DNA of 64,000 bases from assembly GCA_947389015.1 (NCBI GenBank), contig CANDVA010000005.1:1-64000 (forward strand), given 5' to 3'. The position numbers and the translations under genes are program-made. Positions 11,010-43,326 of the stretch are shown in pieces; positions within the stretch are counted from its first letter, which is position 1; the number at the start of each line of letters is the position of its first letter. The notes beneath the pieces are model-generated. The model did not search any database. It was given only the letters and a program-made list of their open reading frames with translations, and was not told the origin of the DNA. This DNA is from an uncultured Clostridia bacterium (lineage in GTDB: Bacteria > Bacillota > Clostridia > Oscillospirales > Ruminococcaceae).

Positions 11010-12066
11010 AAAAGTAGCGGAAAGCGTATTTAAGCGCAGTGAGGAACTGATCGCGCTGAATAAAAAGCGCAGGCGCGACAGGCTGATAAATATCGGAGCG
11101 ACTGTGGGCTGTCTCGCAGTTGCGGGTGCGGTCGGAATAGGCGTGTGGAAAAATGCGGGACGTTCAAACATACAGGTCGTCAGCGATATATACCGGCAGC
11201 AGTCGGGCGCAGACGCAGCTCAGTCGGCAGGTCAGCTTGCCAATGACGAACAAGACCACATCAACGAGGACTACCTTATTATCGACCGATATATTCCGTC
11301 GGACTCGTCGGGTATAGACGCCGTCGGCGCGGAAAGCAGTGAAATTTCAAGTGCGGAAAGCAGTGAAATTTCAAGCGTGGAAAACAGCGAAATCTCAAGC
11401 GCGGAAAGCTCCGTCATTACAAACGATGAAATCTCGGGCGTTTCCGATACAGTTTTTCCCGCACTCAGCCAATCAGTACCAACGTCGGACAGTGAGCCCG
11501 AGCCCGTGAAAGTACTTACCGTGATCGAGGAATACGGCGCTGCCGATACCATTCCCGACAGCGCTCCCGAAAACGGAACCGTACTGCTTACCGACGCTTT
11601 AAAGGATGCAATGGAGGCGTACGGCTACATGGATGAAAACGGAGATATAACATACCACGTCGCCGCGTATTATTACGATAACGGCGTTCCTGTTGACGCA
11701 AATCTGTCCGATATCCGCGAGTACGAGTGGAACAGATTGTGCGGACACGGCTATCTGTGCGAATTTGAAACGTGCGGCAGAAACTGGGGCAGCGAGGTCG
11801 AGCACCATTTTTGCATGAGGCTCACGCGCGAGCAGCTCGAGAGCTTTGTTCCCGCCGAAAATTACGGCTGCACGCTCTGCCTTTACGGAGAGTGCAAGAG
11901 AAGATGTATTCTTTCGCAGGACGACACCGAAAACTCCGTAACATCTGTGCCGCAAAATCAGGGCTATCATCACGATTGGGGCACCGGGAACGGAAACGGC
12001 TATGGTTATGGCAACGGATACGGCGGCGGACATCACAGTGGTGGACATCACGGCGGTCATTGCTGA
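10996..12066 (+). CDS. Putative anti-sigma membrane protein with Ser/Glu repeats and His/Gly-rich tail (module 3)
   Basis: The protein has about 356 residues: a basic cytoplasmic N-terminus, one transmembrane helix (about 34-52), a Ser/Glu/Ile low-complexity stretch with repeated SSEIS units (about 110-145), a cysteine-containing extracytoplasmic domain with three or more C-rich clusters (about 240-310) and a C-terminal tail of alternating Gly, Asn, Tyr and His ending in GHC. The tail has many histidines and could bind metal ions. The start at 10996 is set by AAGGAGGG. Its overlap with the ECF gene supports an anti-sigma role; metal sensing is speculation from composition. Confidence 0.6.
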   Translation: MKNYEKVAESVFKRSEELIALNKKRRRDRLINIGATVGCLAVAGAVGIGVWKNAGRSNIQVVSDIYRQQSGADAAQSAGQLANDEQDHINEDYLIIDRYIPSDSSGIDAVGAESSEISSAESSEISSVENSEISSAESSVITNDEISGVSDTVFPALSQSVPTSDSEPEPVKVLTVIEEYGAADTIPDSAPENGTVLLTDALKDAMEAYGYMDENGDITYHVAAYYYDNGVPVDANLSDIREYEWNRLCGHGYLCEFETCGRNWGSEVEHHFCMRLTREQLESFVPAENYGCTLCLYGECKRRCILSQDDTENSVTSVPQNQGYHHDWGTGNGNGYGYGNGYGGGHHSGGHHGGHC

Positions 12067-19538: not shown

Positions 19539-19640
19539 TATCGTTATTCAAGGTTTTTATACCAAAATGAGATTTATTTTCGATATTTGTACAATTGCAT
19601 TGCTTTTTGGTATATTGCTGGAAAAGCGATGTGTGCTGTA

Positions 19641-20019
19641 AAACCGGAATTTAGCGCAGTAATTCCGCAGCGCCCTCCGCGCGAAGCGCGGAATAAAAGT
19701 TTTTCGCCAAGCCTTTTTTCAAAAAGGCTTGCGGAGTGCAGAGGCGGCGCCTCTGCGCAGGCTTGGGCGGCAGCCCAAAACGCCGTGCGAAGCACGGCAG
19801 TTGCGCACACAGTGCGCAACATAGGCGCGAGCGCCGCACCGCCGCAAAGCGGCGGAACAAAAAAGGCGCTAAAAGGGCTTGGGGAAAAACAAGAGTTTTT
19901 CCCCAAATCAAGGATTTTGCCAACAGGCAAAATCCTTGATAAATTAGTTTTTTCTGCCGGTGGCAGAAAAAACTAATCAGCGACCAAAACCACTCTCTGC
20001 TAAGATAAATTCTGATTTA
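19641..20019 (+). repeat. Hairpin-array repeat, copy 2
   Basis: The repeat is bounded by imperfect terminal inverted repeats, AAACCGGAATTTA on the left and TAAATTCTGATTT on the right. Its interior is almost entirely a row of about eleven perfect stem-loops with short loops: CCGCGC-GAA-GCGCGG, an AAGCC/GGCTT stem, GCAGAGGC-GGC-GCCTCTGC, TTGGGC-GGCA-GCCCAA, GCCGTGC-GAA-GCACGGC, TTGCGCAC-ACA-GTGCGCAA, GGCGC-GA-GCGCC, CCGCCGC-AAA-GCGGCGG, a GGGGAAAAAC/GTTTTTCCCC stem (19879-19906), a 15-bp stem with AACA loop (19907-19940) and a 15-bp stem with GGT loop (19944-19976). The left half matches copy 1, the right half matches copy 3. It ends 5 bases from the rsmA stop. Confidence 0.9.
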
Positions 20020-23006: not shown

Positions 23007-25274
23007 ATGAGCAACATCATCTGGTTTGACAAAGAGGGCGACCTTACAAAATGGGAAAGCCAATGCCTGCCGATAGGCAACGGCTATCTCGGCGCGTCGA
23101 TGTTTGGCGGAGTACGCTGCGAGCGCATAGTGCTCAATGAAAAGAGCCTTTGGGCGGGAGGCCCCTGCAAAAACCGCCCAGACTACCGCGGCGGCAATAA
23201 GCGCGGACGTTACAAGTACGTTGCCGAGGTACAGAAGCTGCTCGCGGACGGCGATTACGAAAACGCCGTGAAGCTGCTCCCCGAGCTTACGGGCGATGGC
23301 GATTTCGGAGCGTATCAGCTTCTCTGCGACGCTGTGCTTGACTTCGACCTCCCCGACGGCGAGATTAAAGACTATATGCGAAAACTCGACCTCGATAAGT
23401 CGCTGTATTCCTGCGAATTCACGCTCGGGGGAGTACGCTGTTCGCGCGAGGCGTTCGCAAGCTATCCCGACAGGGTCATAGCGTTTCGGTTCTCGTGCAG
23501 TGAAAAGATGAATTTCACACTGAAATTGGAGAAAATCCACCCGTCGCGCATATTCACGGAGGACGACACATTAGTGTACAACGGCACGGTCGAGGACAAC
23601 GGAATGCGCTTTGACGCGCGTTTCAAGGTGATTACGGACGGCGGGCTTGAAATTTTCTCGGAGGGTATTTTCGTGCGCGGTGCATCGGAGACGGTGATAT
23701 ACTTCACCGCCGCGACCGATTACGAGATGAATTACCCTGCCTACCGCAGCGGCACAGCCCCCGAAGCCGTGACCGCGCCGATAGTCAAAAGCGCTGCCGA
23801 AAAGGGCTGGGAGGCGCTTTACAGTACACATTACGCCGACTATTCGGCGCTGTATGACAGGGTAACGCTGAGACTGAACAGCGACATCGCCGTACTCCCT
23901 GCCGACAAGCTCCTCGCCGCTTATCGCGGCGGTGACCGCTCTGCAATGAACAGTTTGGAAACGCTCTACTTCCAATACGGGCGTTACCTGCTGATATCCT
24001 CGTCGCGCGGCGGAGCTCTTCCCGCTAATTTACAGGGCGTGTGGAACGAGAGCAACACGCCGCCGTGGTGCTGCGACTATCACATAAACGTAAACCTTCA
24101 GATGAACTACTGGGGCGCGTACAATACAAACCTCGCGGAAACAGCGTTACCGCTGATCGATTTTCTGGACAGTCTTCGCGAGCCGGGGCGCGTCACAGCG
24201 GCGGAATATTACAATATCGTTTCGGACGAAAACAACCCCGAGAACGGTTGGACGGCGCACACTCAGTGCTCGCCGTTCGGGTGGACCGCTCCCGGGTGGG
24301 AGTTTTACTGGGGCTGGTCGACCGCCGCAGTCGCGTGGCTTATGCAGAACATATGGGAGTATTATGAATTCACGGGCGACAAAAAAACGCTTCGCGAAAG
24401 GATATTCCCGATAATGCGCGAGAGCGTACGCTTTTATACGCAGTGGCTCCGTTACGACGAAAAGCAGGACAGACTTGTCTCAACGCCGACGTATTCTCCC
24501 GAGCACGGTCCCGTCACCGTCGGCAATACTTACGAGCAAAGCCTTATCGAGCAGCTTTTTATTGACTTCCTTGCCGCGTCGGGCGAGCTTTCCGAGGACG
24601 GCGAGCTTCAAAATAAGGTTCGCGGAATGCTGCCTAAGCTCAAGCCGTACCACGTCGGAAAAACGGGTTTGCTCAAGGAGTGGTTTGAGGAGGACGAGCC
24701 CGATTTCGACCACTCGCAGATACAGCATGGTCATCGTCATCTTTCCCACCTTATGGGCTTGTACCCGGGCAAGCGGATAACATCCTCGACGCCCGAGGTC
24801 ATGAACGCGGCGAAAATGTCAATGAACGACCGCGGCGACGAGTCCACGGGCTGGGCAAGAGCGTACAGATTAAATCTGTGGGCGAGAACGGGCGACGGCA
24901 ACCGCGCCCACAAGCTGCTCCGCGGACTTCTCGGAGACTGCACGTTTGAAAATCTCTGGGACTTCCACCCACCGTTTCAGATAGACGGCAACTTCGGAGG
25001 CTCGGCGGGTATCGCGGAAATGCTGCTGCAAAGTCACGAGGGAGTGATACGCTTACTGCCCGCTGTTCCGAGCGAATGGCAGAGCGGCGCGTTTACCGGC
25101 TTGCGCGCGCGCGGCGGCTTCGTCGTCGGCGCGGAATGGGAGAACGGAGCGGTAACGTCGCTGAACGTTTCATCAAAAAGCGGCGGTGAATGTACTGTAA
25201 CGTTCCCGACAAGCGGCGGCGTAAGTGCGGCAAGGCTGAAGATAAAAGCGGGAGAAACCGTTAAGATTATGTAA
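23007..25274 (+). CDS. GH95 family glycoside hydrolase (alpha-L-fucosidase/galactosidase type)
   Basis: GH95 enzymes are inverting hydrolases that release alpha-1,2-linked L-fucose or, in some members, alpha-L-galactose. The 755-residue protein has the N-terminal beta domain start W...LPIGNGYLGASMFGG, the catalytic Asn-containing HINVNLQMNYWGAYNTNLAE at about 350-370, SPEHGP with a candidate acid Glu and RGDESTGWARAYRLNLWARTGDGNRAH, followed by FQIDGNFGGSAGIAEML. No signal peptide is present, so it acts in the cytoplasm on imported oligosaccharides. AAGGAG precedes the start. It follows an ECF/anti-sigma pair at 9 bases, an unusual setting. Confidence 0.9.
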   Translation: MSNIIWFDKEGDLTKWESQCLPIGNGYLGASMFGGVRCERIVLNEKSLWAGGPCKNRPDYRGGNKRGRYKYVAEVQKLLADGDYENAVKLLPELTGDGDFGAYQLLCDAVLDFDLPDGEIKDYMRKLDLDKSLYSCEFTLGGVRCSREAFASYPDRVIAFRFSCSEKMNFTLKLEKIHPSRIFTEDDTLVYNGTVEDNGMRFDARFKVITDGGLEIFSEGIFVRGASETVIYFTAATDYEMNYPAYRSGTAPEAVTAPIVKSAAEKGWEALYSTHYADYSALYDRVTLRLNSDIAVLPADKLLAAYRGGDRSAMNSLETLYFQYGRYLLISSSRGGALPANLQGVWNESNTPPWCCDYHINVNLQMNYWGAYNTNLAETALPLIDFLDSLREPGRVTAAEYYNIVSDENNPENGWTAHTQCSPFGWTAPGWEFYWGWSTAAVAWLMQNIWEYYEFTGDKKTLRERIFPIMRESVRFYTQWLRYDEKQDRLVSTPTYSPEHGPVTVGNTYEQSLIEQLFIDFLAASGELSEDGELQNKVRGMLPKLKPYHVGKTGLLKEWFEEDEPDFDHSQIQHGHRHLSHLMGLYPGKRITSSTPEVMNAAKMSMNDRGDESTGWARAYRLNLWARTGDGNRAHKLLRGLLGDCTFENLWDFHPPFQIDGNFGGSAGIAEMLLQSHEGVIRLLPAVPSEWQSGAFTGLRARGGFVVGAEWENGAVTSLNVSSKSGGECTVTFPTSGGVSAARLKIKAGETVKIM

Positions 25275-25289
25275 AAAGAGGTAATAACA

Positions 25290-25577
25290 ATGATAAAGCA
25301 CGTGGTAATGTGGAAATTCAAAGAGGGCGAATACGATAATATGCTGCTGTTCCGAGAGCGCCTGCTCGCTCTTAAAGGCAAGATACCCGAGATACGTGCA
25401 ATGGAGGTCGGCGTGAATATGAATCCCTCCGACCGCAGCTTTGACGCGGTGCTTATTTCGGAGTTCGACAGTCTCGACGCGCTGAAAACATACAGCACAA
25501 ATCCGCTGCACGTTGAGGTGTCAAAATTCTGCAAGTCGATACGCACGCAGTCTGTGAGTGTGGACTATGAATTCTAA
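25290..25577 (+). CDS. Dabb family (stress-responsive alpha/beta barrel) protein
   Basis: The 95-residue protein is a single ferredoxin-like Dabb domain: the opening IKHVVMWKFKEG with the typical histidine, RAMEVGVNMNPSDRSFDAVLISEFDSLDALKTYSTNPLHVEV and a C-terminal strand. Such proteins dimerise into small alpha/beta barrels; in many cases their role is unknown. It lies 15 bases after GH95 and overlaps the next gene, so it is part of the same transcript. Confidence 0.85.
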   Translation: MIKHVVMWKFKEGEYDNMLLFRERLLALKGKIPEIRAMEVGVNMNPSDRSFDAVLISEFDSLDALKTYSTNPLHVEVSKFCKSIRTQSVSVDYEF

Positions 25578-26055
25578 GAGAGTGACCCACGAATTTCCGC
25601 CCGTTTTTGACGAGCGCTCGCGCGTACTTATTCTCGGCACTATCCCCTCGCCGAAGTCACGCGAACAGGGCTTTTATTATATGCACCCGCAGAACCGATT
25701 CTGGAAAATACTGAGCGCGGTGCTTAACGAAAAACTCCCCTCGGATACAGAGGGGAGAAGATCGATGTGTTTAAGTCACGGTATAGCGCTCTGGGATGTG
25801 CTGGAGAGCTGCGATATCAGCGGAGCTGAAGACAGCTCGATAAAGAACGCCGTCCCGAACGACCTGAGGCGGATAATCGACAATTGCCCGATCCACGCGG
25901 TATTCACGACGGGAAAAAAGGCTCACGCGCTGTACGGAAAGCACTTCGCCGACCTTATGCCCGATATCTGCCTCCCATCGACAAGCCCCGCGAACAGAAC
26001 CGTATCCGAGGAAAAAATGCTTGAGGAGTACAGACAGATAATGAAGTATTTATGA
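25567..26055 (+). CDS. DNA-deoxyinosine glycosylase (HDG-type, uracil-DNA glycosylase superfamily)
   Basis: These enzymes remove hypoxanthine or uracil from DNA. The 162-residue protein has LILGTIPSPKSREQGFYYMHPQNRFWKIL near the N-terminus, the family's equivalent of the glycosylase motif 1 with the YYxHPxNxFW block, ALWDVLESC in the middle and LPSTSPANR near the C-terminus. The ATG at 25567 is inside the end of the Dabb gene; an in-frame GTG at 25558 is a less likely start. It is the last gene of the apparent sigma/GH95 operon. Confidence 0.8.
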   Translation: MNSKRVTHEFPPVFDERSRVLILGTIPSPKSREQGFYYMHPQNRFWKILSAVLNEKLPSDTEGRRSMCLSHGIALWDVLESCDISGAEDSSIKNAVPNDLRRIIDNCPIHAVFTTGKKAHALYGKHFADLMPDICLPSTSPANRTVSEEKMLEEYRQIMKYL

Positions 26056-31486: not shown

Positions 31487-31572
31487 TGCATACAAATCTC
31501 CTTATTTGACATAATATCGGTAATGTCGTGCCGCAAAGCCGCGGACGGCAAGACTGCCTTAAGGAGGAAGCT

Positions 31573-31755
31573 ATGAAGGTTGATATTGATCGTGACGGCT
31601 GTATAGGCTGCGGAGTATGCGCGGAAATTTGTCCCGATGTGTTCCGCATAGCGGGAGACGGTTTGTCGGAGCTTATCGCGGAACCCGACGGGTTTGAGGA
31701 CGCGGTCGCGGAAGCGGCGAAATCATGTCCCGTCGAGGTCATTCACATTGATTGA
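31573..31755 (+). CDS. Small single-cluster ferredoxin
   Basis: The 60-residue acidic protein has CIGCGVCAEIC at about 11-21 and a C-terminal SCPVEVI. This matches monocluster [4Fe-4S] ferredoxins of the Thermotoga/Desulfovibrio kind, in which three of the first cysteines and the last bind the cluster. AAGGAGG lies just before the ATG; a longer in-frame reading from 31528 lacks a ribosome site. The flavoprotein upstream is a plausible partner. Confidence 0.88.
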   Translation: MKVDIDRDGCIGCGVCAEICPDVFRIAGDGLSELIAEPDGFEDAVAEAAKSCPVEVIHID

Positions 31756-31768
31756 ATTGTAAAAGAAA

Positions 31769-31805
31769 ATCCCCTGTAAGGAGCTCCTTACAGGGGATAA
31801 TTATT
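31769..31805. terminator. Bidirectional terminator, near-perfect palindrome
   Basis: ATCCCCTGTAAGG and CCTTACAGGGGAT form a 13-bp stem around AGCT, with A-rich sequence on the left and T-rich on the right, between convergent genes. Confidence 0.8.
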
Positions 31806-31814
31806 CTTGGAAAA

Positions 31815-33038
31815 TCAAGCGTAAACGCTGTACAGCGCGCCCGTATTGTAGGCGTATGTAGAGGTTCTGTCGGCGTTGTAGCCCATTGCGCTCGCGCTGA
31901 TCGCCAACGACTTGACCTGATCCGCCTTCTGCGCTACCTTATCTGTGAACCCGCCGTAAGCGAACGCGTACTTAACGTCCTTTTCGGTGATCTTTGAAAG
32001 ATCGTCCGCAAGTGTGAGTTTCCCGTCCTGACCCACGGAGATGCCCGCGCGCTTAAGCGCGTGCTGATACGCTCTCGCGGTACTCTGCATCGTAATGCCC
32101 TTCTGCTGAATTCCCGTCTTGTCGGACTTGCCCATTTCGTCGACAAAGCTGTTGTACTTGTTAACAAAATCCTTTGCGGTATCGGTGAAGTCGGTGACCT
32201 TAAACTCATTGACTTCGCTGCCGAGACCGTGCGCGTAAGACTTGACCGCCGTCGCCGCGTCCTTGACCATAGCGGTAAGCTCCTTCAGTGTGCCTACGCC
32301 GCTTACCTTGTCGGCAACATTTGTCGTATTGTTATTATCGGACGTGGAGGGATTTACGGTAAACTGCCCCGAGCCTCCCGATATCTCGTTTATCTGGCGC
32401 GATTTCTGAATGACCTTGTCGGAAAAACCGTTAGAACCGAAAACGAACTTAACGTCCGAAGCCTTTACCTTAGACAAGTCATCGTTGACGGACAGCTTAT
32501 TGTCCGCGCCCACGGAGATGCCGGCGCGTCCGAGCGAGCTCGAATACACCTTGCCAGTATTCACCATAAGCACACCCTTTTGCAGAACGCTGTTTTTGTC
32601 TGAATTCCCTACCTTATCAATCATGGAATTGTAATTATCGACAAAGCTCTGCGCCTGCGCTCTGTACGCGTCAGTATCAAGCTCGCCGCCGTACTTCAGA
32701 CCGTTGGCAAAGCTCTTGATGCTCTGCGCCGCGCCGCCCGCGTTTGCGGACGCTGATTTCACCGCCTGCGCGGTGCTTACGGATGAGATATCCTCACCGT
32801 CGTCGCTTATGCCGTAGATCTTCTTGTAAAGATCGCTGAATTGATCGCGGTAAATACCGCTCTTGTTTTTGAGCGCCTTGCTGTTGAGCAGATCGTTCAG
32901 CGACTGCGTAGCCGTTGAGTACTTCCCGTACTTGTTCGAGTACATCGAGTTGTAGATATTGTTCAGCTGCGAGCCGTAGCGCGTCTGAACCTGCGCCATA
33001 TTGAACTGTGTCCTTGCATAATTACCTACTGTCGGCAT
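31815..33038 (-). CDS. Duplicated FliD-like repeat protein of unknown function
   Basis: The 407-residue protein has no signal peptide or transmembrane helix. Two repeats of about 115 residues (about 100-216 and 259-377) share the pattern FVxxYNSxxDxxGxSDKxxxxQKG, then AGISVGxDxKLxxxDDLSKxxxxDVKxxFxxxGFxDKV. This resembles the C-terminal part of FliD flagellar cap proteins (a KL-D-L strand pattern before a helical close). The N-terminal 50 residues are Asn/Tyr/Ser-rich. No flagellar gene is adjacent. AGGAGG 7 bases upstream picks the ATG at 33038. It may be a secreted filament or scaffold component; function unknown. Confidence 0.65.
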   Translation of the reverse strand: MPTVGNYARTQFNMAQVQTRYGSQLNNIYNSMYSNKYGKYSTATQSLNDLLNSKALKNKSGIYRDQFSDLYKKIYGISDDGEDISSVSTAQAVKSASANAGGAAQSIKSFANGLKYGGELDTDAYRAQAQSFVDNYNSMIDKVGNSDKNSVLQKGVLMVNTGKVYSSSLGRAGISVGADNKLSVNDDLSKVKASDVKFVFGSNGFSDKVIQKSRQINEISGGSGQFTVNPSTSDNNNTTNVADKVSGVGTLKELTAMVKDAATAVKSYAHGLGSEVNEFKVTDFTDTAKDFVNKYNSFVDEMGKSDKTGIQQKGITMQSTARAYQHALKRAGISVGQDGKLTLADDLSKITEKDVKYAFAYGGFTDKVAQKADQVKSLAISASAMGYNADRTSTYAYNTGALYSVYA

Positions 33039-33225
33039 AACCATTCCTCCTTAATTTAATAACACCGCATTTCGGCGGACCATGCTCGAAACTGTTCCCT
33101 ATGCTTGTTCGGGTCGCTTTGTTTCGCTTCCGAGTCTCCGAAAGGTGATTTGAATATGTAAATTCCGCAATTAACATTACGCATATTGCAATGGTCTGCG
33201 GTTATTATACAAAATAATGTAAATC

Positions 33226-33882
33226 TTAATCAACGCCGTAAGCCTTACGATATTCTTTCATCTTATCGACATACTCCGCGCCCGGGATAATTCCGCTTTC
33301 GAGTGCTGCGATTATATCGTTGATGTTCACGATAGAATACACCTTAACGCCGAACTCCTCGAAAACCTCCTGTACGGCGGATTTATCGGAGGCGAGTCCC
33401 TTTTCGGCTCTGTCAACGGTGATCACCATACCCTCTATATCCACCTTTGCCGCGTCTTGGAGCTTCGGCAGCACTTCGCGAAGAGCTTTTCCGCTTGTCA
33501 TAACGTCCTCGATAATAACGACTTTTTCGCTGTCCTCAAGAGTCTTTCCGACGAACATTCCGCCCTCGCCGTGATCCTTGACCTCCTTGCGGTCAAAGCA
33601 ATAGTTGCAGTCTGTTCCGAACTTATTATACAGCGCAGTGCAGGCGGCAACGGAAAGCGGTATGCCCTTGTAGGCGGGTCCGAACAGCGTATCGGGCTTC
33701 AGACCGTGTTCGTTTATACATTCCGCGTAATATTCTCCAAGCTTTGCAAGCTGAGCGCCCGTCTTATAGTTTCCGCAGTTTATGAAATACGGCGCTATTC
33801 TGCCGCTTTTCAGCGTAAACTCGCCGAACTTCAGCACGCCGCTGTCTACCATAAATTTAATAAAGCTTTCCTTGTAAGTCAT
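33226..33882 (-). CDS. pyrE: Orotate phosphoribosyltransferase
   Basis: PyrE makes orotidine 5'-phosphate from orotate and PRPP in pyrimidine synthesis. The 218-residue protein has LKFGEFTLKSGRIAPYFINCG, FGPAYKGIPLSVAAC and the PRPP-binding loop KVVIIEDVMTSGKAL at about 120-134. AAGGAG precedes the start. It is isolated from other pyr genes here and has its own promoter. Confidence 0.93.
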   Translation of the reverse strand: MTYKESFIKFMVDSGVLKFGEFTLKSGRIAPYFINCGNYKTGAQLAKLGEYYAECINEHGLKPDTLFGPAYKGIPLSVAACTALYNKFGTDCNYCFDRKEVKDHGEGGMFVGKTLEDSEKVVIIEDVMTSGKALREVLPKLQDAAKVDIEGMVITVDRAEKGLASDKSAVQEVFEEFGVKVYSIVNINDIIAALESGIIPGAEYVDKMKEYRKAYGVD

Positions 33883-33915
33883 TATATTCTCCTTAAAAGA
33901 TATCTTTACAGATAC

Positions 33916-33944
33916 ATTATAACATATTCCTCCGTATTTTTCAA
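33916..33944 (-). promoter_or_regulatory. Promoter of pyrE
   Basis: On the minus strand TTGAAA (33944-33939) and TATAAT (33921-33916) have a 17-base spacer, about 34 bases before the start codon. Confidence 0.75.
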
Positions 33945-34105
33945 GTATTTAGAGAGTTTTTTTGCCTCATTTTTCTAAAATTATGTGAACTATTATAACT
34001 CGAGAAATACTTCGCTCTTTGCGCAACAAAATGAGAAATATCTGTTAAATATGGCAAAATTTTTTTGTTGTTTAGTGCAAAGTCGCCAAAATCTTTTCGA
34101 TCTCC

Positions 34106-34134
34106 TTGACAATTATATGAAAATCTACTATAAT
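34106..34134 (+). promoter_or_regulatory. Consensus sigma-A promoter of the chemoreceptor gene
   Basis: TTGACA at 34106-34111 and TATAAT at 34129-34134 with a 17-base spacer: a perfect consensus, 39 bases before the start. This contrasts with the sigma-D control usual for motility genes. Confidence 0.85.
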
Positions 34135-34173
34135 TAGTGTATAAAGCTTTAAAATCTAATTGAGGTGATAGTT

Positions 34174-36135
34174 ATGAAGATCAGATCCATTCGCAGCCGC
34201 ATAATCCAGCTTACGCTGCTGCTCGCGCTTGTACCGCTGCTGATCGTAATGCTTTTCTGCATTATTTCGAGCTACTATTCCGCGATAAACACGTCCAAAA
34301 AGGATATGGGTATCATGGCGGAGCTGGCTTCGGAATACGTTGAGTGGGAGTTCAACACCTATCTCGCCTACGCGGAGTCGGCGGGAATGAATCTTACGCT
34401 CTCGGATCCTAATGTCGGCAACAAAGAAAAGCTGAGCATTATAAACGACCTTGCCGTGCAGCACGGTATGAAACGCGGAAACATCATAGACGCTGACGGA
34501 GTCAACATTACGGATCAGGCGGATTATTCCGACCGCGGCTATTACAAAGAGGCAATGAAAGGGAACTCGTGCGTATTCAATCCTACGGTGTCGCGTCTTA
34601 CGGGCGAGATAATCCAGATCGTTGCCGCTCCGCTTCGGGAGAACGGCGTAACGGGCTCGACACCCATCGGCTGTGCGTATTTTATTATGAGCGATGACGC
34701 AATGAATGAGATCATGCGCAAGATCAACATCAGCGACAACTGCTACGCGTTCATCGTGGACAGCAGTGGAAACGTCGCGGCGCACGTTGACGCAGAAAAC
34801 GTCCTGAACGACGAGGTCAAGGAGACCATAATAAGCAATCTCGGCGAAACATATGAATCAATGATGGCGGGTCGGACAGGTATCGACACCCGCACAAAAA
34901 ACGGCACGACTATGCTCGTCGCGTATACACCGATCGAGAGCGTCGCGGGCTGGTCGCTGGCTATCGTCGCTCCGCAGAACGATTTCCTGCAAAGCACCTA
35001 TACCGTTATCGCGATAGCTGTTTTCCTGTTCCTGCTTGCGGCAGTCATTGCGGTGCTGTGCTCAATGGTAGTCGCGCGCCGTATTGTAAAGCCGATACAG
35101 CTTTGCGCGGACAGGCTTGTCAAGCTTTCCGAGGGCGATCTTTCCTCGCCTGTGCCCGATATCCGCACCAAGGACGAAACACTTATACTCGGCAATGCCA
35201 CGAATACGCTGGTGACGGGCATCAACGTGATAATCGGCGACGCGAATTATCTTCTCTCCGAAATGGCGGCGGGAAACTTCGCCATTCACTCAAAGGCGGG
35301 ATTTGACGCGTATAAGGGCGATTTCGGCGAGCTTATCACCGCTATCCGCATAATCCACGACGAGCTGAAAAGCGTGCTGCTTCAGATCACGACCTCCGCC
35401 CGCGAGGTATCGGGCAGCGCCGATCAGGTGTCCTCGGGCGCGCAGACGCTCTCGCAGGCGTCGGTCGAGCAGGCTGCCTCCGTTGAGGAACTCAACGCGA
35501 CTATCCATAGCATTTCCACCAAAGTTACCGAGACAACGGGCAGCTGCGAAGAGGGCAGCAATCTTGTTGCGAGGACTGCCGAGCACGTCGAGATCGCCGT
35601 TTCGGAAATGGAGAACCTCCGTTCGGCAATGGATGATATCTCCGCGGCTTCAAACGAGATCGACAATATCATAAAGACGATAGAGGATATCGCGTTTCAG
35701 ACGAATATACTCGCGCTCAACGCAGCTATCGAGGCGGCACGCGCGGGCGAAGCGGGCAAGGGCTTTGCGGTCGTTGCCGACGAGGTGCGCAACCTCGCGA
35801 CAAAATCCGCGGAGGCGGCGCACGATACAACGGAGCTTATCGGAAGGACTATCGCCGCGGTAAACAACGGAAATCAGATAGCCGAAAAGACCTATGCATC
35901 CGTCAAGGGCGTATCGGAGCTAACCGAGAACGTGGAGAAGATCGTCGGACAGATCGCCGCCGCTTCCGAGGAACAGGCGGATATGATAAAGGATATCACC
36001 TCGGGCTTCGACGAGATATCCGCCGCGATAAACACAGGCTCCTCCACAGCCGAGGAGAACACGCAGACCTCCGCTTCGCTTAACGACGAAGCTAAGACGC
36101 TCGGCGACATGGTGAGCCGTTTCAGATTGGACTGA
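34174..36135 (+). CDS. Methyl-accepting chemotaxis protein
   Basis: The 653-residue receptor has an N-terminal transmembrane helix (about 10-33), a periplasmic-type dCache/Cache sensing region (with [27 protein letters not shown] and [12 protein letters not shown]), a second helix (about 285-308), HAMP-like sequence and a C-terminal signalling domain with the conserved hairpin tip [40 protein letters not shown]. The start at 34174 fits GAGG 8 bases upstream. The promoter is sigma-A-like. No che operon is nearby. The ligand is not predictable, although Cache domains of this type often bind amino acids or small carboxylates. Confidence 0.9.
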
Positions 36136-41992: not shown

Positions 41993-42033
41993 CCAACTGA
42001 AAGCACTCTTTGCTTCGGAAAGGACAGATGACT

Positions 42034-43179
42034 ATGACGGACAAGAATAATCTCGGCGCGTTTGACCGTTTTCGGCTTGCGGCGGCGGTGCTGGTAATAG
42101 CGATACATACTTCGCCGTTTTGGAGCGTAAACGAGACCTGCAATTTTCTGCTGACAAGCGTTTTCGCGCGTGTCGCCGTGCCGTTTTTCTTCGCGATGAC
42201 GGGGTATTTTACGGACTTCAAAAGCGCAGCGCGTATCGGGAAACTCGTTGTAAAGACCCTCGCGATGTACGCGGCGGCGATAGTGATATATCTCCCGTTC
42301 GGCACTTACTCGGCAACGCTGAGAATGCTGCTGTTTGACGGCGCGTTTTATCATCTCTGGTACTTTCCCGCTTGCGTTACGGGGGCGCTTATCGTTTTCG
42401 CGCTTGAAAAGCTGCCTGCCATACCCGCTTTTGCGGTAGCGGGTACGCTGTATGCCGTAGGAGTATTCGGCGACAGCTATTACGGGCTTACCGCAGACTT
42501 GCCGTCGGTTCGCGCGATGTATGATTTTTTCTCGGGAATATTTTCCTATACGAGGAACGGGCTGTTTTTCGCGCCGCTGTTTATGCTGATCGGCAGCGCG
42601 CTGTCAAAACGCGAGCTCGGCGGAAATCGTTTTGCGGCGGGGACGAGGTTTGTACTGTCTCTGCTGCTGATGACTGTCGAGTGTTTGCTGCTCAAAGGTA
42701 TCGCGTTCGCGCCGCATGACAATATGTTCTTCTTGCTGATACCCGCGGTGATTTTTCTGTTTGATTTTCTGGCGTCGTTCAAGGCGAAACCGCGCCCGCG
42801 TTACCGCAAGGCGGCGATGTGGATATATATTCTTCATCCGATAGCGGGGTATTGGATCGGCATTCTGACGACGCAGCTCGGGATAGAGGACTTCTCCGCA
42901 CGGTATAGTTTCTTGAACTTTGTGCTTGTAACGGTGCTGTCGTTCGCGGCGGCATTCGGGATAGAGCTTACGCGAGCGGTTTTGGAAAGATTTTGCGGGA
43001 TCGGACGCGGAGTAATGGGGCGTAGACAGGTAAATCAGAATTTAGCGCATAAGCTTTATGACCAAAAAATTGGGATTCCAAAGGGACCGGACCCTTTGGC
43101 GGGATGCAAGGGCAGAGCCCTTGCCGGGTTCGGGCGGAGCCCGAAACGCCGCGTAGCGGCAAAAACAAAAAAGCGCTAA
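42034..43179 (+). CDS. Acyltransferase-3 family membrane protein, C-terminus extended into a repeat
   Basis: The protein has about ten transmembrane helices in roughly 330 residues, opening with FDRFRLAAAVLVIAIHTSPFW, the AT3 catalytic-type arginine/histidine motif, and FFFAMTGYF, and continuing with ILHPIAGYWIG. AT3 proteins O-acetylate cell-wall, teichoic or surface polysaccharides. AAAGGA 9 bases upstream supports this ATG; an earlier ATG two codons before is too close. The last 48 or so residues (from about QVNQNLAHK) are encoded by the dispersed repeat at 43031 and are not part of the family, so an insertion replaced the original end. It is probably controlled by the divergent LytTR system. 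Confidence 0.82.
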   Translation: MTDKNNLGAFDRFRLAAAVLVIAIHTSPFWSVNETCNFLLTSVFARVAVPFFFAMTGYFTDFKSAARIGKLVVKTLAMYAAAIVIYLPFGTYSATLRMLLFDGAFYHLWYFPACVTGALIVFALEKLPAIPAFAVAGTLYAVGVFGDSYYGLTADLPSVRAMYDFFSGIFSYTRNGLFFAPLFMLIGSALSKRELGGNRFAAGTRFVLSLLLMTVECLLLKGIAFAPHDNMFFLLIPAVIFLFDFLASFKAKPRPRYRKAAMWIYILHPIAGYWIGILTTQLGIEDFSARYSFLNFVLVTVLSFAAAFGIELTRAVLERFCGIGRGVMGRRQVNQNLAHKLYDQKIGIPKGPDPLAGCKGRALAGFGRSPKRRVAAKTKKR

Positions 43180-43326
43180 AAGGGCTTGGGGAAAAACAAG
43201 AGTTTTTCCCCAAATCGGCGATTTTGCCAACAGGCAAAATCGCCGATAAATCACTTTTTTCTGCCGGTGGCAGAAAAAAGTGATCCGCGCTCTAAGCAAC
43301 ACCTTATTGATATAAATTCTGATTTA
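43031..43326 (+). repeat. Hairpin-array repeat, copy 3
   Basis: The ends are a perfect 14-bp terminal inverted repeat: TAAATCAGAATTTA on the left and TAAATTCTGATTTA on the right. The interior is a row of stem-loops: CCAAAGGG-ACCGGA-CCCTTTGG, GCAAGGGC-AGA-GCCCTTGC, TTCGGGC-GGA-GCCCGAA, GCCGC-GTA-GCGGC, a GGGGAAAAAC/GTTTTTCCCC stem (43186-43213), a 15-bp stem with AACA loop (43214-43247) and a 15-bp stem with GGT loop (43251-43283). The last three match copy 2, with paired changes that keep both long stems perfect. It reaches into the 3' end of the acyltransferase gene. Confidence 0.9.

Follow-up and report, generated by a model that had tools for sequence, protein, structure and literature searches.

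Three copies of a repeat built of consecutive hairpins lie in the window, the whole 64,000-nucleotide stretch analysed here, from the draft genome of an uncultured member of the Clostridia. We consider these repeats, with a probability of about 0.6, to be gene-free members of a mobile cassette family that extends across the bacterial family to which Ruminococcus albus belongs. Judged from sequence, a cassette of this kind is a short segment flanked by inverted 14-bp cores (TAAATCRGAATTTA ... TAAATTCYGATTTA). Its usual cargo elsewhere appears to be one promoterless gene, whereas the cargo amplified in the window genome is a string of perfect hairpins. An earlier note on this DNA had described a dispersed mosaic family with terminal inverted repeats. 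This interpretation is partly supported; it holds as a description, but has to be enlarged to a cassette family.

Copy 1 occupies positions 1–86 on the minus strand, with its core (TAAATTCTGATTAA) at 73–86, its inner arm at 64–72 and a single complete perfect hairpin at 3–26. The earlier note recognized all three copies correctly, but the partial state of this one is not a feature of the element, because base 1 of the window is base 1 of its contig (C5) and the assembly cuts the copy there; many contig ends in this draft assembly lie inside the repeat. Copy 2 (19640–20019, plus strand) opens with a degenerate left core (AAAACCGGAATTTA, 19640–19653) and the inner arm GCGCAGTAA (19654–19662), both on the plus strand. 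Its left block (19676–19855, plus strand) holds eight perfect hairpins (19676–19692, 19708–19731, 19738–19756, 19763–19778, 19782–19798, 19800–19820, 19824–19835 and 19839–19855) and its right block (19879–19977, plus strand) three long perfect hairpins (19879–19906, 19907–19940 and 19943–19977), in which changes between copies are paired. It ends with an inner arm (19997–20005, minus strand; CTGCTAAGA on the plus strand) and the right core TAAATTCTGATTTA (20006–20019, minus strand). Copy 3 (43031–43326, plus strand) has a left core, TAAATCAGAATTTA, at 43031–43044 with an inner arm at 43045–43053, eight perfect hairpins within 43048–43284 (43048–43060, 43078–43099, 43106–43124, 43129–43145, 43148–43160, 43186–43213, 43214–43247 and 43250–43284) and, on the minus strand, an inner arm at 43304–43312 and the right core TAAATTCTGATTTA at 43313–43326. 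The terminal inverted repeats proposed earlier are evident in copy 3 (TAAATCAGAATTTA/TAAATTCTGATTTA), but copy 2 has a degenerate left end. A 389-residue open reading frame upstream of copy 3 (window 42010–43179) runs into the element, which provides its final codons. Elsewhere in the window, 24-nt tandem repeats are present at 11329–11400 (three units, with 96% and 79% identity to the first).

Copy 2 contains eleven non-overlapping perfect hairpins with stems of 5–16 and loops of 2–4 bases, not counting the right core, and copy 3 contains eight, one of them with a loop of 6, not counting its two cores; the earlier figure of up to eleven perfect stem-loops was accurate. Ten hairpins in copy 2 have a stem of at least 6, compared with a mean of 0.52 and a maximum of 3 in mononucleotide shuffles. 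Folded as DNA, copy 2 reached −124.9 kcal/mol (z = −12.3; none of 100 shuffles folded as well), and copy 3 folded as RNA gave z = −12.5 (none of 200 shuffles). The mosaic relationship of the copies was also borne out: positions 1–67 and 19667–19733 are 96% complementary (copies 1 and 2), and the right parts of copies 2 and 3 (186 nt) share 83% identity. No transposase gene lies in the repeat, as had been noted, and a transposon gene within the hairpin units was rejected because the frames there resemble chance. Rfam gave no match anywhere in the window at gathering thresholds. A plasmid or phage origin of copy 3 was rejected, as no match was found among 72,556 plasmid and 50,697 phage records.

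A BLAST search with copy 2 returned 64 matches in its own genome, which we resolved by hand into about 34 places, including 13 where a contig ends (40 of the 64 candidates were scored, the 26 lowest rows, mostly short and self-palindromic, were dropped, and pieces of one copy were merged). The end 15-mer ATAAATTCTGATTTA occurs 82 times in this genome with at most two mismatches, against 6 occurrences for the reversed control. The copies are neither confined to the places first noticed nor lost on alignment. The core is a 14-bp quasi-palindrome, TAAATCRGAATTTA, that is adjoined on its inner side by NNNNAGYAA. We compared the 42 ends of 21 units in this genome, comprising 18 hairpin units of 291–399 bp, two units of a 368-bp class and one gene unit. 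Core positions 2–5 and 8–14 agreed in 41 or 42 of the 42 ends, position 6 was C in 36 and T in 6, and position 7 was A in 34 and G in 8; this conservation is in part a matter of choice, because the ends were picked by their cores. The inner arm, separated from the core by four variable bases, was not a criterion for picking, and it was also conserved (A19 in 41 of 42, G20 in 33, T or C in 35, A22 in 42 and A23 in 35). The outermost core base was T in 33 ends, A in 6 and C in 3. TA at the ends, reported earlier, is common but not universal, and the variation argues against strict TA duplication.

The same cores also bound other cargo in this genome. The 368-bp class is represented by two intact copies (L060 and L077) and by more at four contig ends (C6, C13, C37 and C38); it has longer inverted ends (TAAATCRGAATTTATGTTAGCAAG), and the one copy examined contains no perfect hairpin with a stem of at least 6. 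At L077, the preceding gene takes its stop codon from the TAA of the core. A 361-bp unit (L076) appears to be one gene. A further core pair 97 bp in extent (L059) was rejected as a unit since it overlaps a gene start. The earlier description of the repeat as MITE-like suits one member of the family only; the ends also occur outside the hairpin repeat, around the 368-bp class and around single genes. Like REP, BOX and ERIC elements, the repeats are many-copy, intergenic and palindromic; they differ in the number of hairpins, in having terminal inverted repeats and in having ends common to gene units. Six contigs of this genome (C39, C40, C41, C42, C44 and C47) end in another repeat (TGATGTTGTATAATAAAACTTGACACAATCC, TGATTTTGTCAATATCACTTGACACAATTT-like), perhaps an insertion sequence that has lost its interior from the assembly.

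Beyond the window genome, the cores usually enclose a gene. The loci that we collected contain 67 core pairs with at most two mismatches in all, 20 of them in the window genome and 47 in others. Three of these 47 pairs lack an open reading frame and two repeat a listed gene, which leaves 42 distinct open reading frames, several of them poor gene calls with long untranslated parts. The distance between the start codon and the outer boundary of the 5′ core is 17–33 nt in 27 of the 42, and in 21 of the 42 the first TAA of the 3′ core is the stop codon (one of these, at L174, with a doubtful strand call). A CGG core at one end was paired with a TCTG-like core at the opposite end in 39 of the 47 foreign pairs. 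Of 247 genomes from 126 genera of the bacterial family, 20 genomes in 13 genera contained the pattern of arm plus CGG core, with one mismatch allowed, and the control gave 0. The number of core sites differs between genomes, G000 for example having 66 and G003 none. Pfam assigned 42 families to 35 cargo proteins; among the 25 families listed were GNAT acetyltransferases (six proteins), alpha/beta hydrolases (three proteins) and, in single proteins, methyltransferase, isochorismatase, nitroreductase, glyoxalase, cupin, APH-type and helix-turn-helix families, and no recombinase or transposase. Comparison with a defence library gave single matches only. The cargo genes, as far as sequence shows, appear to be promoterless and tightly packed behind an outside promoter. 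At one locus of R. albus KH2T6 (L238, genome G199), two one-gene units stand side by side, and one of the genes matches the APH phosphotransferase family.

Comparisons between genomes suggest that these units are exchanged whole. A 543-bp isochorismatase unit differs by one mismatch between genomes G012 and G013, and outside both cores the two loci are unrelated, with flanking 10-base blocks matching at 1–6 of 10 positions. Conversely, at one locus shared by G011 and G012, the flanks are identical at 59 of 60 positions on each side and the interiors are unrelated and oppositely directed relative to the promoter-like flank. A further locus has upstream flanks that agree at 56 of 60 positions; past the core the interior diverges, and the downstream flanks differ. 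A two-gene unit of 1,390 bp is found at different loci in G014 and G029; its copies have diverged, and an ungapped comparison was uninformative. These alignments indicate that a core-to-core unit can occur at unrelated loci and that one locus can hold unrelated units.

Many, although not all, gene units are preceded by a TTGACA/TATAAT-like promoter, then GTTACNNNN and then the core; NNNNAGYAA follows the 3′ core, often with a terminator-like hairpin. We refer to such promoter–terminator surroundings as platforms. Two R. albus flanks, joined and used as a query, found matches at E 0.01 in 26 of the 29 genomes from the R. albus genus; a genome had between 1 and 39, left and right halves being counted apart, and in two genomes there was a single match, above E = 0.001. 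In R. albus 7 (G287), 19 platform loci were read, 18 on its contig C5 (L329–L346) and one on C2 at 31500–34300 (L347). A CGG-type core, counted by eye with at most three mismatches, directly follows the promoter in 15 of these loci, is partial in 2 and is absent from 2. The platforms start with an exact ATATAGAAGTTT in 11 of the 19 loci and a near-match in 6, and AAAACTTCTATAT was exact at 5 of the 12 right ends shown; they appear to carry an outer inverted repeat, ATATAGAAGTTT...AAACTTCTATAT. Platforms were also present on pRUMAL01 (220885–221451) and on pRUMAL02, where an annotated hypothetical gene runs in the same direction as the promoter. In G107, a platform without an evident gene retains a core. 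Rfam gave no match in five platform or array loci, and the platform hairpin was seen in none of 119 loci of the window genome. An over-specified scan of genome contigs found two loci, R. albus KH2T6 being named. Scans of viral contigs gave 0 and 1 loci.

The hairpin strings and the cassette ends might be two unrelated things: intergenic hairpin strings found throughout the genus, acting as terminators or RNA-processing elements and spread by another route, would have been captured once by cassette ends and then amplified, with no role in movement. We regard this as a serious contender, at somewhat less than even odds. Of the 43 genomes analysed from the genus, 25 contain a match to copy 3, its own among them. 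Among the matches listed outside its own genome, many span only query positions ~136–183 (the GCGCTAAA...GGGGAAAAAC module) or ~35–112, and none extends to the cores; since coreless matches are so common in the genus, the hairpins may simply have been captured. That the 368-bp class has the cores and no perfect hairpin is also in keeping with capture. Together, coreless hairpins and cores around other cargo indicate that hairpins and ends are separable modules.

Two observations speak against capture. First, gene-free hairpin units with the same cores recur in a second genus, that of R. albus, where cores in G311, G298 and G266 surround units of 218–486 bp without an evident gene, each with 2–5 perfect hairpins (eight units read, hairpins counted without a shuffle control, one unit, L400, holding a run of N). 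The hairpins cover 0.11–0.31 of these units, against 0.52–0.60 for four of the hairpin units that the window species has, and the gene-free units of G311 have parts common to several of them in mosaic fashion. Second, most of a unit is gone from the copy-3 locus of G004, the genome that matches best within the genus (81% identity over the neighbouring gene); what is left is a shrunken remnant with a degenerate core (TAAATTAGAA) and a first hairpin, so coreless strings elsewhere may be decayed units. Because G004 keeps this remnant at the same locus, the copy-3 insertion is probably older than the split from G004, and decay by internal loss is possible. No clean empty site was found, either at this locus or with a coreless pattern in the 43 genomes, which gave one doubtful place (on both strands) against two genomes hit by the reversed control.

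Some changes in the hairpins keep the pairing. Among 22 aligned right modules (19 from the window genome, 3 from G004 and G029), changes on both sides that keep the pair were present in 9 of 52 predicted pairs; the independent events are fewer than the cells, because the 22 sequences are related. In like-oriented copies, the loops read AAGA in 17 and TCTT in 2, AACA in 16, TGTT in 2 and AATA in 1, and GAA in 5 and TTC in 1 (19 copies inspected, some without a given hairpin). Such inverted loops fit arm-to-arm copying or local inversion, and the perfection of the stems may be maintained by selection or by one arm being copied onto the other. The string is probably a passenger that would insulate transcription between neighbours. 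The genes beside 20 copies in the window genome, taken from automatic open reading frames, are divergent in 7 cases, convergent in 6 and in tandem in 7, and these mixed directions do not single out a role as terminator.

We next consider how cassettes of the proposed family might move. The boundary can be read as a dyad, TTRCTNNNN-TAAAT-NNNN-ATTTA-NNNNAGYAA, with TTRCT as the outer arm and AGYAA as its mirrored counterpart on the inner side. The outer arm was enriched in the units of the window genome (z = 5.4; 39 flanks) and more so in units of the same genus that were retrieved by their core only (z = 11.0; 48 flanks). In gene units, the inner arm had z = 4.7 on the 5′ side, where it is confounded by the ribosome-binding site, and z = 1.7 on the 3′ side. 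The window species thus appears to have a strong inner and a weak outer arm, and gene units a strong outer and a weak inner arm. We propose that an enzyme encoded elsewhere acts in trans and recognizes the core plus an arm. The strong arm would come from the cassette itself in hairpin units or from the resident platform in gene units, and the opposite arm would be a degenerate half of the target; a recombinase that binds the core and at least one good arm would account for both arm patterns.

We somewhat favour a tyrosine-type site-specific recombinase over a DDE transposase. A whole-site search with two mismatches gave hits in 17 of 29 genomes (control 0) and also matched two hsdS sites in G305 that flank inverted hsdS halves and adjoin a tyrosine recombinase (PF00589, E = 1.4 × 10−30). 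This locus (L397; G305 contig C6, 56000–64000) encodes a type I restriction system, and its TAAATGAAAATTTA sites resemble the cassette boundary; a similar whole-site match was also found in G266. The likeness may be coincidence, because the sites encode HsdS residues (NTAINENLEQQ). The cassettes can be compared here with the hsdS shufflons of phase-variable type I restriction systems (compare PMC7394358): the G305 sites share with the cassettes the layout of TAAATNNNNATTTA and arms (two mismatches) and adjoin a tyrosine recombinase, but they lie in HsdS coding sequence and there is no exchange of unrelated genes. Dispersal to new loci would be easier by transposition, because inverted identical sites should invert a segment, not insert it.

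No moving enzyme was evident in the neighbour clusters listed. Of the two enzyme families for which the window genome was searched, DDE_Tnp_1 is absent. The other, Y1, has three matches, but the three loci contain neither a core (at most two mismatches) nor a GGGCTTGGGGAAAAAC module; as the repeats do not flank them, a link to Y1 or RAYT transposases was rejected. A tyrosine recombinase near a lone core-like match on contig C25 of this genome was likewise rejected, the match lying within an integrase coding frame and resembling chance. That stretch (L282 4378–7015, C25 ~23377–26014) has integrase-like frames, probably those of an integrative element.

Tentatively, and as a possibility rather than an expectation, the system may be a natural form of recombinase-mediated cassette exchange. 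Single genes would pass between dispersed, hairpin-insulated promoter–terminator platforms with two inverted sites each, inside one genome or from one to another, and also from chromosome to megaplasmid or back, and could be kept in the silent direction. The enzyme might be kin of the tyrosine recombinases that shuffle hsdS, and the strings in the window would be gene-free cassettes amplified through degenerate sites.

A rather unlikely alternative, in our view, is that we are dealing with ordinary MITEs plus mobile insertion cassettes, moved with TA target duplication by the DDE transposase of a yet-unseen insertion sequence. The 14-bp ends (23 bp with the inner arm) would then be terminal repeats, hairpins and genes passengers, and the outer arm a target preference. 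TA at most ends, the dispersal of near-identical hairpin units over many intergenic places and mosaic non-coding units in two genera agree with this. MITEs, including Correia-type elements, are likewise short, intergenic and gene-free, with terminal inverted repeats, many copies and TA at most ends, but the interior here is made of independent perfect hairpins in modular order and the ends also bound single-gene units. Mobile insertion cassettes (compare PMC6542083 and PMC5444012) similarly carry passenger genes within inverted repeats and no transposase gene. They differ from the present units, which have quasi-palindromic ends with arms, platforms and diverse cargo in many genera; moreover, neither a parent insertion sequence nor any autonomous transposon with the same ends, and no transposase unit, was found among the 67 core pairs or the further stretches read. 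The outermost base is not T in 9 of 42 ends, the gene-free platform of G107 retains one core, and the arm of gene units lies outside the ends, which fits less easily with a transposase reading only inside them.

The cassettes also resemble those of integrons (compare PMC1382264), which are likewise small and tightly bounded, usually hold one gene without a promoter, are placed behind an outside promoter and can form runs. Integron cassettes have a single attC, unlike the units here, which carry two inverted cores and are identical from core to core; the many dispersed promoter–terminator platforms, the gene-free hairpin members and the failure to recognize an integrase in the neighbour clusters listed are further differences. 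One locus in G037 (L263 12326–15715; contig C5 82325–85714) does have about seven small genes in one direction, the first four parted by similar linkers of ~35 bp between cores. The gene after this run resembles ttcA. True integron relatives, with an intI-like integrase acting on attC-like linkers, are very improbable: the tight promoterless single-gene units, promoter-proximal insertion and the G037 run are outweighed by identical units that run core to core with one core per end and by the lack of a recognizable integrase beside the sites in those clusters.

Among article listings and abstract openings, from a collection with few subscription journals or preprints, we found no description of this repeat or system. 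Integrons are the main setting in which gene cassettes are known. If the Clostridia have a second cassette economy, whose expression platforms lie on both the chromosome and the megaplasmids of R. albus 7, a cultured strain, it would reveal how individual accessory genes travel in such bacteria. The hairpin strings, with their inverted loops and paired stem changes, are good material for studying the upkeep of perfect palindromes, and the cores and platforms could be tried as a natural route for placing genes in bacteria that are hard to manipulate.
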